The position numbers and the translations under genes are program-made. Below are positions 1 to 62,870 of a stretch of DNA of 64,000 nucleotides, one piece after another; position 1 is the stretch's first letter; each line of letters starts with the position of its first letter. The DNA comes from Branchiostoma floridae (Eukaryota; Chordata; Leptocardii; Amphioxiformes; Branchiostomatidae). The notes beneath the pieces were generated by a model. It ran no database searches, was not told the origin of the DNA, and saw only the letters and a list, made by a program, of their open reading frames with translations. The stretch spans positions 5,857,686 through 5,921,685 of the forward strand of contig NC_049993.1 of NCBI RefSeq assembly GCF_000003815.2, given 5' to 3'.

Positions 1-3000
1 GATAGAAACAGTTGTGTCTAACCGCTCAATCCCGTACCTGCTGGACGGCTTGACGCGTGAGGCGCAGTATGAGCTATCTGTGGTTCTGACGAGACCTGGG
101 GCTGGAGGGCGTGGTGCGATGGGACCATCTGTCATAGTAACGACACATCCTCCAGGTAAGCTGTGAACAGCGCTTGTTTTTCACTGAGTATTAGTTGAAA
201 TCACCACATGCAGTAATTTTAGCTTTTGGATCCATTTACGAATCGAATCTAGAACGTTGATGTTTGATCTCTTGTCTTTATTGATTTCAGTTGATGGAAG
301 CTGGTCGGAGTGGGATGACTGGTCCCCTTGCAGCGTATCCTGTGGCAACGGCAGCAGGACCAGAACAAGGACATGTGACAACCCCAGTCCTGCTTATGGC
401 GGGCAGGATTGTGACGGGGTAGGGAGTGACACACAGGACTGTCCGGACCAACCAACTTGTTCAACAGGTAAGCAAATTTAAAGGCATCACAACTCAATGC
501 GCGTCAACACAGTGGTACAATCATGCAGCTATTGGAAATTTGTAACTTAATACTAGTGCTGGCCTGGCTATTGATTTATCCATAATTTGCTCAATGCTCT
601 GTTATCCGTGTATTTGTAGGTCCGCCAATGGGCGTAGTGGCGGGCGCAGCCGGGGGTGTGGCTGCTGTATTATTGGTGGTGATAGTGATCGCCGCCATTT
701 TCTTTATCCGACGGTAGGTATCCATTTTGTTCAGGTATATGTGTATGTTATATACATATAACAAACTGTGTTGTTTTGGTGTACTTTGTTTTGTTTTGGT
801 ACTGTTATTACAGAGTTTTTCCCAATGTAAGACATGCGAGCTGATTTTGGGATTTACATTGCCATTGGCAGGCGACGGAATCAACGACCTCCACTTCCCG
901 TCCGTAAGGATATGTCAGATGTGGAAGGGGTTTCCAATGCGTCGTTCGTTACAGGTAAGAAATCTGATGTTCTTTACTTACTTTGCTAGATATATACCAA
1001 AATGATATTTTAGATATTGCCATCACTAACTTCAAAAGAGCTGAAAAGGTAAATTCCCTTTGCCCATCTTAGACCCAATTGGCTCCCGTTTGCATGAAGG
1101 CACAAGAGCGGCTGATGACGGACCTGGCCCAAGTTCAGCTACTAAATATCATGCCTCAAGACCAATTTTCAAGGAGAACAATAGGGTAAGAAGCTGTTGT
1201 TTTCACACTTGGTTACAGTTTGTCACGAACATGACATTCATCTTAGTATGAATTAGAATTGAAGGCAATGAAAATAAATAAGATATGATCAAATTCAATC
1301 ACATACATAATCACGATGATAATATTGTTTGTAACTTGCAAGCAAGATAGTACACTCCCAATCATGCAGCGTGTTCAATCCAAACTGTTGATGACTTTCT
1401 AGGCTAAGTTTAGTCGAAAGTCATTTTAGTATCTATCTGTACTTAATGTATCTTTCCATGCACAACAGCCCATTCCCCTGAGGATAATGGCTGTTAACCA
1501 CCGCGAGTTGAGTTGGGACGACATTTCTCTCACCAACAAGCTGCTTGGATCAGGAAATTTTGGAGAGGTCCGTAAGGGAACCGTCAACCTGGATGGTGAA
1601 AGGATACCGTCAGCAATTAAAGTACTGAAACGTAAGCACAAGAATCTCAAGATACAAAGCATCATCAGGCATGATATATTCACAGTGCCATTATATTGTG
1701 TATTTTGTATAACATAGTCCTTGATGAATGTTTTTAATATATGTAACTGTAGTTAGAGTCTATAGAACATTGTACTATAATGCAGAACTACTTAATGTTG
1801 CTTATCACAATTTAAACCTTATGTTTTTGTTTTGTTTTTTGGTTTAATTTCAGGAGGAGCAGATGAAGCTGCCAGACAAGACTTTCAGCAGGAAGTGGAC
1901 ATCATGCGCCATGCTGGTTACCATCCTAACATCATCAACCTGCTGGGAACCTGTGAACACCAAGGTAACGTAGTCCGTGTCCATAGTCAGTTAGCTTTAG
2001 TGCTTGTGCTTGCTACAGAATGTGCTTTGTCTTTTCACAAGAATGTTATATGTTTTTACTTGACATGACCATCTAGATTGATAAGCCACTTGAATATCTC
2101 TGTTACATGACATTATTTTCGTTTGACTGTTATCTATGTGTTAGTGGTAAGATAAACAATGACATGTATCATTTGCAGGACAACAGTACATGGCCCTAGA
2201 AATGGCCGGGAATGGCGATCTGAAGAATTACTTGCGAAAGTCTCGTGTTCTGGAAGTGAAGGATCCCGCCTATGCCAACACCCGTCAGACTGTCAGCACG
2301 GTGTCCTCCCTGTCACCTGTCCAGCTCCTGCGTATCGCGTGTGACGTAGCTACGGGGATGGAACACCTGTCTTCTAAGGACGTATGTTAGAGTATAATTT
2401 ATGCACCTTTTTCATGTGACGGAGGTCAACAATGAGGCAAAAAACAAAAGTTACTTATAGCATCAGCTCCCATTCGGTTTTTGCTCCCAAACTACACGTA
2501 AGTTTCTTGTTATAAGATCAAATGATGTAAATAGTGTTATGCACCGGAAATATGTGACAATTTATAGCAGCATAGAGATGCAAAATATTAAAGAAAAATA
2601 ATGCAAATGCAGCCATACTCTAATTGGTCGATTTGATAATCGTCATGCAACCATTGATTGATTTACTACTTATGATGGACAGTGTTTTGTTTGCCACATT
2701 GACCTCGTTTTCGATCTATCATGTCCGCTGCGTGAAAAAGGTGTGTTCTTTCCTGGAGTTTGATAGTTTGAGTTTTGTATCAAATGATTCTAATGAGATG
2801 TGTGTACACAATACAATACTGTAATATAATATGATACTAATATTAAGACATCTCTGTTATCAGGTGATCCACCGTGACCTGGCGGCTAGGAATGTTCTCC
2901 TCACGGACAGTCTCATCGCCAAGGTAGCCGACTTCGGACTGTCACGTGGGGAGGGCATCTATGAACAAACATCTAAAGTAAGTATGGTACAACACTCTGG

Positions 3001-61800: not shown

Positions 61801-62870
61801 CAGAACTAGATATAGGCATAAATTTTATTTTGTGACAATTAGTCCCGTTAGCGTATGTCACATGGCTTTACCAATTACTCAATATTTTCTCTTCGGGAAA
61901 ATGGCTGACACTAAAGTTTACCTTTACCATATACTTACGTGGACGCTAATGAAGATTAGTGGCACGTCTAAGTTTATTTGGTTTGTATTTTTTTAGGAAA
62001 GAGGAAAACATGTTCGCGCTTGCCACTTTTCAGCTGGAGAGGGGAGAGCTAACCTCCATTCCGAAAGGTAGAGTGGATAGTTTGTAGTATTTTACATACA
62101 TACATACATACATATTCATACTCGAGTCATTATCGAGTTCAAGCATTGACAAAGTTCTGCTTCCATTGTGCTCTATCTTTCATCAGTTCAAAAGATAACG
62201 AAATTTTCTTTAAAGTATAAATGGAATAGTAGAGTGTTAACATTAAGATAAAATGAGTATTATGAAAGGAAATAAGGGTATTCTGAGATTGAACCATACA
62301 CAACAAAACACACACAAAACTCTGAATAGATTGAAAAATAACGAAACAGCATGGTTAAGGGGCAGACTTTTGGAGTGGTAGTGTGAATATTTTGTGGGAG
62401 CGCTGATTTGCGGTTTCTAATATGGGCTGAGAGTCTGTATGCTGGGAAAGGGAGTCTGCAAAGGAGGCTACATGGTAACCTCCATAGCAGGCTCTCTATG
62501 GCCTTTTTTGGCACTTTTGCTTAGAATGGCCGGCTGTCAGAAAAGGCCAGCAATCAGCGACCCAGTACAAAAAGAAATGACCAGCAAAAGTGCCAAAAAA
62601 GGCCATAGAGAGCCTGCTATGGAGGCTAACTACATGGCTTATACATATAGGTTTTTCCTTTGAATTCTGGATCTTGTAGACTGAACAACGCTAACATCGT
62701 CATAAGTCCACCGACTATTTTCCCCTGCAGAGATGACGGGAAAGCGCCTCGCCTACCTGCGGCTGCACACAGGGGAGTGGAAGAAAACCGGGACATACCG
62801 GGTGGAGGCGGAGGAGCTGGACAAGTACATGGAGACCACAGGGTTCGACGGGCTCATCTGGCAGTTCGAG
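58876..62870 (+). CDS. Third paralogue: short Ig-FN3 receptor, probable phosphatase (5' part, 7 exons in window)
   Basis: Exons 58876-58927 (signal peptide MSILYQLFVWLCLVYS), 59521-59862 Ig, 60223-60433 and 60857-60963 FN3 halves, 61478-61562 TM, 61997-62067 juxtamembrane, 62731-62870 linker. They join in phase into 336 codons; the rest lies beyond the window. The Ig matches the last Ig of the other two phosphatase genes, and the FN3 has GDGPVVAMAV and [32 protein letters not shown] aligns with the helix just before D1 in the other two ([20 protein letters not shown]), so a PTP domain is expected next. It lacks the N-terminal Ig and EGF domains. The FN3 donor may be 60960 or 60963. Confidence 0.82.
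59020..59380 (-). mobile_element. LINE 3' end fragment with (ATCAA)n tail
   Basis: Plus-strand TTTGATTTGATTTGATTTGATTT (about 59020-59045) is the reverse of a pentamer tail. The adjacent minus strand reads a short coding-like stretch with RLDFLRNRSHRSI. It lies in intron 1 of the third paralogue. Family uncertain. Confidence 0.5.
61146..61290. mobile_element. Hairpin MITE (about 145 bp)
   Basis: Arms containing GAAGATTGTGACATTTTTAT and its reverse complement lie at about 61166-61187 and 61248-61268 and extend outwards imperfectly (CAAGCAGGGTTTGGT against ACCAACCTCTGCTT). The centre has a second small palindrome. It is in the intron before the TM exon of the third paralogue. Confidence 0.65.
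62476..62628. mobile_element. MITE of the TAGCC/9-bp group (153 bp)
   Basis: Inverted ends of about 43 bp, starting TAACCTCCATAGCAGGCTCT and ending with the reverse complement (one mismatch near the tip, giving TAGCC). The flanking repeats GCTACATGG and ACTACATGG indicate a 9-bp duplication. It lies in the intron before exon 62731. Confidence 0.85.

Follow-up and report, generated by a model that had tools for sequence, protein, structure and literature searches.

Organization of the locus

The 64,000-nucleotide stretch of the Branchiostoma floridae genome analysed here (the window; positions 5857686-5921685 of contig NC_049993.1, hereafter C15) carries, on the forward (+) strand and in this order, a Tie-type receptor tyrosine kinase gene (K), two genes in which a Tie-type ectodomain precedes tandem protein tyrosine phosphatase (PTP) domains (P1 and P2), and a reduced third PTP gene (P3). 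We examined the window together with 60 kb upstream and 80 kb downstream of it, giving negative numbers to positions upstream of its start, and built exon models by chaining on frame, splice dinucleotide, phase and a simple splice score; K was chained as two parts. Genome-wide searches covered 513,431,437 bases in 431 contigs. The original prediction, made from the window sequence, had a Tie-like kinase gene and, after it on that strand, two complete phosphatase genes; it held up: K begins 5.9 kb upstream of the window, and both P1 and P2 could be modelled in full (Table 1).

K, P1 and P2 share one extracellular order: signal peptide, Ig1, Ig2, EGF1, EGF2, EGF3, an extra Ig-like exon (IgX), Ig3, FN3 and a transmembrane exon, with a PAN exon after the signal peptide in P2 and a thrombospondin type 1 (TSP1) exon after FN3 in K. 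In all three models every joint between extracellular exons is of phase 1, and the 3' end of the transmembrane exon is of phase 2. Reading frames are open throughout the exon models of P1 and P2, each of which has one signal peptide and one transmembrane segment. From the FN3 exon to the first exon of the D1 region (the two PTP domains being D1 and D2) is about 2 kb in both genes, and this interval holds an in-phase transmembrane exon and a juxtamembrane exon. Of three N runs in the window (9113-9468, 12367-13279 and 50089-50188), the last falls in a P2 intron within D1, and the joins between ectodomain and catalytic part are gap-free. The intron phase series of the PTP part is equal in P1 and P2 except for one extra P1 intron, and both C-termini read ...FDTYANF(G/K). 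The gene models confirm that a Tie-type ectodomain and tandem PTP domains are joined in both P1 and P2.

Table 1. Modelled features of K, P1, P2 and P3, in window positions
Gene	Feature	Position	Strand	Basis or remark
K	Signal peptide, Ig1, Ig2, EGF1-3, IgX and Ig3 exons	from -5853 (C15:5851832), upstream of window	+	exon chain, phase 1 joints
K	FN3 exon	-144..155; 1..155 in window	+	exon chain; ectodomain to Tie2 E 6.1e-63
K	TSP1 exon, between FN3 and transmembrane exon	291..467	+	Pfam TSP_1 E 8.2e-15
K	Transmembrane exon, phase 2 end	620..713	+	exon chain
K	Juxtamembrane exons 872-954 and 1073-1185	872..1185	+	less certain; other phase-compatible choices exist
K	Kinase exons	1469..4586	+	AIK lysine; ALE where Tie2 has AIE; tail SYVNT
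P1	Complete gene, 27 GT-AG exons, 1336 aa, then stop	19142..37061	+	no internal stop
P1	Ig1	20276-20605	+	Tie2 alignment
P1	Ig2	24745-25035	+	Tie2 alignment
P1	EGF1	25288-25413	+	Tie2 alignment
P1	EGF2, with CLPDPYGC	25833-25985	+	Tie2 alignment
P1	EGF3	26165-26293	+	Tie2 alignment
P1	IgX	27013-27300	+	
P1	Ig3	27507-27809	+	
P1	FN3	28439-28738	+	
P1	Transmembrane exon, phase 2 end	29008-29101	+	
P1	Juxtamembrane exon	29346-29437	+	two nested phase-compatible choices, longer used
P1	Tandem PTP	30719..37061	+	D2 has WPG and HCIDGVERSG
P2	Complete gene, 1410 aa, then stop	41765..56543	+	
P2	PAN exon, between signal peptide and Ig1	42204..42452	+	Pfam PAN_1 E 1.7e-12; phase 1-1
P2	Ig1	42863-43195	+	
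P2	Ig2	43430-43690	+	
P2	EGF1	44085-44219	+	
P2	EGF2	44571-44735	+	
P2	EGF3	45108-45236	+	
P2	IgX	45503-45799	+	
P2	Ig3	46003-46314	+	
P2	FN3	46698-47006	+	
P2	Transmembrane exon	47497-47593	+	
P2	Juxtamembrane exon	47702-47772	+	
P2	Optional juxtamembrane 20-codon exon, with NIYDEI	48518-48577	+	fits by phase; would add 20 aa
P2	Tandem PTP	49070..56543	+	D2 has WPS and HCINGVGRSG
P3	Partial gene	59290..64000 and beyond	+	signal-like stretch at 59290, outside chain
P3	Ig	about 59604-59862	+	
P3	FN3	about 60223-60433 and 60857-60926	+	
P3	Transmembrane segment	61474-61548	+	

The ectodomains are of Tie type from Ig1 to EGF3

When scored against the sequences of solved structures, the ectodomains of P1 and P2 both had Tie2 (chain 4k0v) as their best match (216.7 bits, E 5.1e-63, and 209.6 bits, E 6.3e-61), as did that of K (216.7 bits, E 6.1e-63). 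Across Ig1-EGF3 the best solved relative of both phosphatase genes is Tie2: this part of P1 (20276..26293) aligned to Tie2 residues 4-322 with 139.6 bits, and in P2 the aligned stretch begins at the end of Ig1. At these E-values, and at 7.1e-147 (P1) and 1.1e-152 (P2) for PF00102, chance is excluded as the source of the sequence matches. The Ig1 assignment rests on the alignment to Tie2, and a genome search with the Ig1 exon of P2 returned K, P1 and P2 only (3/3 candidates scored). IgX sits in a gap of the Tie2 alignment. AlphaFold models of IgX and Ig1, built from two-row alignments, reached pLDDT 56.1 and 44.0, and Foldseek with this poor IgX model gave generic Ig-like matches, the best being ICAM-1 D1 (3tcx, E 5e-4).

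The Tie hallmarks that the original prediction had seen in these ectodomains thus survive for Ig1-EGF3, but not for the rest. The motif RPGxGGRG is ruled out as proof of a Tie ectodomain, as PTPRM and PTPRK read LTRPGEGGTG there, and the Ig3-FN3 of P1 scored higher with PTPRM (88.3 bits) and PTPRK (87.0) than with Tie2 (76.7; a many-repeat titin chain reached 77). We therefore limit the term 'Tie ectodomain' to Ig1-EGF3. For the Ig-FN3 of P3 the scores were 57.1 bits with PTPRM, 52.1 with PTPRK and 34.6 with Tie2. MAM, the N-terminal domain of R2B receptors, found no match in the extracellular exon frames scanned with Pfam, nor in the P1 and P2 models.

The likeness of the Ig-FN3 part to R2B phosphatases extends to human Tie2 itself. 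Among solved structures, the best non-Tie matches of human Tie2 Ig3-FN3 were PTPRK (59.2 bits, E 3.9e-15) and PTPRM (58.7 bits), the next reaching 26.1 bits, and the best non-R2B match of PTPRK Ig-FN3 was Tie2 (56.5 bits, E 2.8e-14), the next family reaching 40.7 bits. Because this match is reciprocal, the Ig-FN3 units of Tie kinases and of R2B phosphatases appear to be homologous, which points to an old family relation between the PTPRK/PTPRM phosphatases and Tie kinases. When the P1 FN3 exon was searched against the genome, 9 places matched: one each in K, P1, P2 and on C7, two in P3, and three elsewhere.

The phosphatase parts of P1, P2 and P3

As predicted, the cytoplasmic parts of P1 and P2 are tandem PTP domains. 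PF00102 matched each in two stretches, and Pfam found no kinase family in them. D1 of both genes keeps the CX5R loop, the WPD aspartate and the KNRY motif expected of an active PTP. With single-domain chains, D1 of P1 scored 324 bits for PTPRK, 314 for PTPRT, 295 for 2nv5 (named only protein-tyrosine-phosphatase), 283 for PTPRM, 256 for PTPRU and 215 for VE-PTP. For D1 of P2 the scores were 302 (PTPRK), 282 (PTPRT), 279 (PTPRM), 260 (2nv5), 255-261 (D1 stretches of PTPRS/LAR), 248 (PTPRU) and 198 (VE-PTP). D1 of both genes is thus nearest to the R2B group (PTPRK, PTPRM, PTPRT, PTPRU); tandem LAR-type chains outrank R2B overall, as their score sums both domains and the listing has no two-domain R2B chain. 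A VE-PTP type is ruled out by the D1 scores, and the two genes also depart from the R3 layout in having tandem PTP domains and Ig and EGF domains. P1 and P2 have a Tie-type Ig1-Ig2-EGF3 N-terminus followed by R2B-like Ig-FN3 and PTP parts.

The NIYDEI of the optional P2 exon is a possible phosphotyrosine docking site. At 53239-53584, the P2 exon starting (C/F) has a near-identical partial copy just upstream, seen by eye in the frames.

The reduced third gene of the original prediction exists but extends beyond the window, with PTP exons as far as about position 74984. The P3 model is partial, and several of its splice scores are poor. Its P-loops read VHCGSGVDQTG in D1 and VHCESGAGLSG in D2, the CX5R arginine being replaced by Q and by L respectively, so that P3 lacks the signature of an active PTP. 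A simple remnant within the window is ruled out, as P3 continues with open PTP exons and this dead signature.

K is a Tie-type kinase whose ectodomain is closest to that of P1

K has the Ig1-Ig2-EGF3-Ig3-FN3 order of a Tie receptor, with IgX and TSP1 as extras and one FN3, where Tie2 has three; its TSP1 exon is without counterpart in the P1 and P2 models. Among the best 60 of 2477 solved-structure matches, which do not include Tie1, its kinase domain scored 316.7 bits with Tie2 against 216.2 with FGFR1, and a two-stretch EGFR-labelled chain (9p9u) summed to 296.9 bits. The spliced kinase gave 306 bits with Tie2 by BLASTP, with 150/299 residues identical, and its tail SYVNT aligns with TYVNT of Tie2. 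By these comparisons the K kinase is of Tie type and nearest to Tie2. An apparent decayed second EGF2 exon copy lies in K at window -2001 to -1962, with 87.5% identity over 40 bases to EGF2 of P1.

The ectodomains of K and P1 are far closer to each other than to that of P2. Over ectodomain and transmembrane exon, synonymous divergence (dS) is 0.92 for K-P1, 2.76 for K-P2 and 2.43 for P1-P2, and K-P2 identity is 29-45% in the Ig and FN3 domains. In an Ig2-EGF1-EGF2 tree, K and P1 grouped with support 100/99 and P2 came next (82/83), human Tie2 standing outside; in an EGF1-EGF2 tree the same groups had 98/96 and 92/91, with human Tie2 outside and paired with a gene on C8 (85/88). An Ig3-FN3 tree of 7 rows recovered K-P1 (95/99) and the R2B pair (90/97), and left P2 unplaced and the deeper forks open. 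These trees have few, short rows, and Tie2 forms a long branch in the first and the third.

Amino acid identity between K and P1 is uneven along the ectodomain, at 40/42 in EGF3, 37/48 in EGF2, 30/41 in EGF1, 66/94 in IgX, 69/99 in Ig3, 70/109 in Ig1, 57/98 in FN3 and 34/91 in Ig2. The value for Ig2 (37%) is lower than that of the remaining seven extracellular domains pooled (369/531, 69%; permutation p 1e-5, the lowest value attainable with 100,000 draws), and comparison with Ig1, IgX, Ig3 and FN3 alone (262/400) likewise gave p 1e-5. Synonymous sites between K and P1 are saturated in Ig2 (pS 0.78), and EGF1 stands at 0.81 too, so the divergence of Ig2 is old as well, and not fast alone. We read the stalk as partly homogenised between K and P1, and the head as having a separate history. 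In Tie2, Ig2 is the angiopoietin-binding domain. Its divergence here argues against an identical ligand for K and P1, and weakens the proposal of a shared one.

Related loci in the genome

PTP exons matched at at least 144 places genome-wide (150 of 185 candidates scored), and three further PTP genes, each partly read, resemble P1 and P2 in order. One, at C7:16.01-16.05 Mb, has Ig-like exons below Pfam cut-offs, a Tie-type EGF1-EGF2, many EGF, FN3 repeats and PTP. Another, at C15:10.305-10.325 Mb, has Ig2, EGF1, EGF2, six more EGF, a PAN-like exon (BLAST E 0.002, no Pfam match), Fibrinogen_C, EGF, Ig and FN3, in a phase 1 chain as far as a second FN3, its PTP exons being placed by BLAST. The Fibrinogen_C match (195.5 bits, C15:10.308-10.314 Mb) thus lies in the in-phase chain of a Tie-type Ig2-EGF1-EGF2 phosphatase gene, and may have a second exon, as the donor scored poorly; angiopoietins use a fibrinogen-like domain of this type on Tie2. 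The third, at C15:7.765-7.785 Mb, has Ig2, EGF1, EGF2, further EGF and the start of a PTP part, with an Ig1-like exon seen by eye and without a Pfam match. The swap of catalytic cassettes envisaged in the original prediction is borne out in that a kinase (K) and R2B-like phosphatases (P1 and P2) stand behind one ectodomain type, but it was not a one-off event at this locus, since these three genes on C7 and C15 also have Tie-type Ig2/EGF N-termini.

Among 27 hand-listed loci with a Tie-type EGF2, PTP exons follow on the same strand, no more than 40 kb downstream, at six: P1 and P2, which are fully modelled, the three partly read genes, and C15:10.775, assigned by proximity only. K has its own kinase, one locus has PTP exons 99 kb off, and 19 have no listed PTP exon. 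All these locus counts are lower bounds, the comparison having used 81 of the 144 PTP positions; the genome search with the human Tie2 EGF domains scored 150 of 491 candidates. A K-type kinase exon occurs at six loci (23/23 candidates scored), and a listed Tie-EGF pair adjoins K only. At one of these loci, K2 (C15:15.34-15.36 Mb), exon-by-exon identity to K is 66-95%, and F5/8-type repeats lie upstream, of which one was tested with Pfam; K2 also carries a similar acidic tail (SYMNVDKDDDFEYEMVDS).

Several other loci were noted in passing. The EGF1-EGF2 pair that groups with human Tie2 lies at C8:17.5228-17.5259 Mb, and frames downstream of that gene resemble, by eye, flavin monooxygenases. At C7:24.4, C8:24.05-24.14 and C12:0.6-1.0 Mb lie numerous long genes, commonly of about 940-970 codons, in which one open frame matches both EGF and tyrosine kinase; the genome searches with the human Tie2 kinase and EGF domains listed many genes of this kind. 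Between 5.9 and 16.4 Mb, C15 holds 15 of 36 PTP exon clusters (from 81 hand-typed positions), which suggests a local expansion of receptor phosphatases.

Discussion

We think it probable that the locus is a tandem array of receptors built from phase 1 modules, in which catalytic cassettes have been exchanged and K forms a paired set with P1 and P2. The join and the class assignments are likely right; the exchange may have run from kinase to phosphatase or the reverse. On this explanation, single-pass receptors would be assembled from phase 1 exon modules, and exchange would have replaced the catalytic 3' half while the 5' half, encoding a shared ectodomain, stayed in place. The breakpoints would lie in the introns that follow the transmembrane exon; this exon has its phase 2 end in K, P1 and P2. 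K and P1 would be a paired activating and opposing set, associating in cis through their shared EGF-IgX-Ig3-FN3 stalk. K would signal, P1 and P2 would strip phosphotyrosine from K and from its substrates, and P3 could be a non-catalytic competitor or substrate binder. If the Ig1-Ig2 head sets ligand choice, as we propose, then K and P1 probably bind related, not identical, ligands. Clustering of Tie2 is reported to require homotypic contact of membrane-proximal FN3 domains (PMC8560823), and the pseudophosphatase D2 of PTPRK to recruit substrate (PMC9640194); by analogy, stalk contact and a role for the dead PTP domains are plausible.

A number of observations weigh against this explanation. 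The data give architecture and ancestry, and the architecture is known entirely through genomic exon models; pairing, cis contact, substrates and ligands are a proposal. A genome search with the human Tie2 kinase (131 of 630 candidates scored, the K exons not among them) listed first two single-exon genes at C16:16.61-16.62 Mb (255.8 and 253.3 bits, 44%), a counterpoint to the match of the K kinase with Tie2, for which spliced K gave 306 bits. The profile searches and separate phylogenies that the original prediction had named as checks came back mixed: the Tie2 sequence match and a K-P1 clade in three ectodomain trees agree with it, but Pfam Ig_Tie2_1 reached 16.4 of 25 bits in P2, below cut-off, with no match in the exons of P1, and a D1 tree of 7 rows, none of them R2B, leaves P1 and P2 unplaced. 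A genome search with Ig_Tie2_1 gave no matches, and its controls gave none either. The choice of R2B over LAR type rests on the D1 scores. D1 of P1 and P2 are 46% identical to each other, against 54% and 53% to the C7 gene and 50% to human PTPRS, so the two are old, separate PTP lineages. Finally, the excess of K-P1 identity at fourfold sites in EGF3 (13/16, p 0.04) is a weak signal of homogenisation.

Could the joined genes be an illusion, with Tie-ectodomain receptors or soluble proteins lying beside separate PTP genes and sharing no transcript with them? Lancelet domain novelties have been argued to be probably gene-prediction errors (PMC4967905), and the 19 of 27 Tie-EGF2-type loci without a listed PTP exon downstream also have no adjoining K-type kinase locus (six such loci, by eye). 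We nevertheless judge this very improbable: in-phase transmembrane and juxtamembrane exons occupy the short FN3-D1 interval of P1 and P2, each model has a single signal peptide and transmembrane segment, and the joins are gap-free. Contiguous exons, matching phase and the comparable orders in the stretches read of three other genes argue against the published warning in this case.

The array as we read it leaves two directions of exchange. The Tie-type ectodomain may originally have belonged to an R2B-like phosphatase, to be captured by K, and perhaps by Tie itself. In the ectodomain trees K groups first with P1 and next with P2, leaving human Tie2 outside; six of the Tie-EGF2-type loci have PTP exons nearby and one, K, a kinase; the Ig-FN3 unit accompanies PTPs in R2B, P1, P2 and P3; and the five other K-type kinase loci lack a listed Tie EGF pair, K2 having F5/8-type repeats instead. 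However, sea urchin SpTie1/2, cited in PMC12113024, puts a Tie kinase before chordates, the earlier history of K may have been erased by its exchange with P1, and the trees compare few, short rows from one genome and human, with Tie2 on a long branch in two. We hold this direction to be rather unlikely, and the opposite one, in which P1 and P2 took their ectodomains from Tie kinases in more than one copying event, to be doubtful as well. The age of Tie kinases in deuterostomes (PMC12113024) favours the latter, as does the place of K as the upstream-most gene of the array, together with its closeness to P1; yet it requires several separate PTP captures, because P2, the C7 gene and the C15:7.78/10.31 pair separate from K-P1 in the EGF tree, in which the deeper forks are not all supported. 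It is similarly unlikely, in our view, that K, P1 and P2 share modules only and act in different tissues on unrelated ligands. The divergence of Ig2 between K and P1 and the low K-P2 identity would fit this, but the stalk exons of K and P1 stay close though Ig2 does not, which resembles immune paired receptors.

Known systems resemble the array in part. Vertebrate Tie1/Tie2 (TEK) and SpTie1/2 share the Ig1-Ig2-EGF1-3-Ig3-FN3 order, and K is in addition a Tie-type kinase with a YVNT tail (human Tie2 being the one compared); they differ in the tandem PTP domains of P1 and P2, in the IgX and single FN3 of K, P1 and P2, in the TSP1 of K and in the PAN of P2. R2B receptors, which have MAM and several FN3, are nearest in Ig-FN3 (PTPRM/PTPRK) and in D1 (PTPRK/PTPRT), but P1 and P2 have the Tie-type Ig1-Ig2-EGF3 N-terminus in place of MAM, and one FN3. 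Immune paired receptors (KIR, SIRP) also combine similar ectodomains with opposite signals, tandem arrangement and signs of homogenisation; they act through ITAM/ITIM adaptors, whereas in the array the receptor itself is kinase or phosphatase. VE-PTP (PTPRB, R3 type), which as a receptor phosphatase targets a Tie kinase, would by analogy be the functional counterpart, although it has a single PTP domain and an FN3-only ectodomain (PMC5336234) and its D1 score is about 100 bits under that of PTPRK. The original prediction spoke of Tie receptors as kinases in vertebrates; Tie kinases are not confined to that group, given the sea urchin SpTie1/2 reported (cited in PMC12113024). No receptor phosphatase with a Tie-type ectodomain was described among the matches listed from open-licence PMC literature, searched by titles and abstract openings, nor in the accessible portions of PMC8662651, PMC11788884, PMC11950037 and PMC5237311.

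A more speculative reading, which we offer with low confidence, treats Tie kinases and R2B phosphatases as a single receptor family with two branches, between which catalytic domains have been exchanged. A Tie-headed phosphatase (Ig-Ig-EGFn-Ig-FN3n-TM-PTP-PTP, TM being the transmembrane segment) would be ancestral, the Tie kinase would have taken over its ectodomain, and R2B would have arisen when MAM replaced the Ig-EGF head; the ancestral form might still be seen in outline on C7 and C15, in one case with a fibrinogen-like domain in cis.

The origin of dedicated phosphatases for receptor kinases is an open question, and in vertebrates the phosphatase that opposes Tie2, VE-PTP, differs from it in its ectodomain. 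As a kinase and phosphatases stand here behind one ectodomain type in one array, co-regulation, cis-pairing and ligand sharing can be tested directly. That Tie2 Ig3-FN3 and PTPRK/PTPRM Ig-FN3 match each other reciprocally ties together two families that are usually handled apart, and may offer a concrete route to the origin of Tie receptors.

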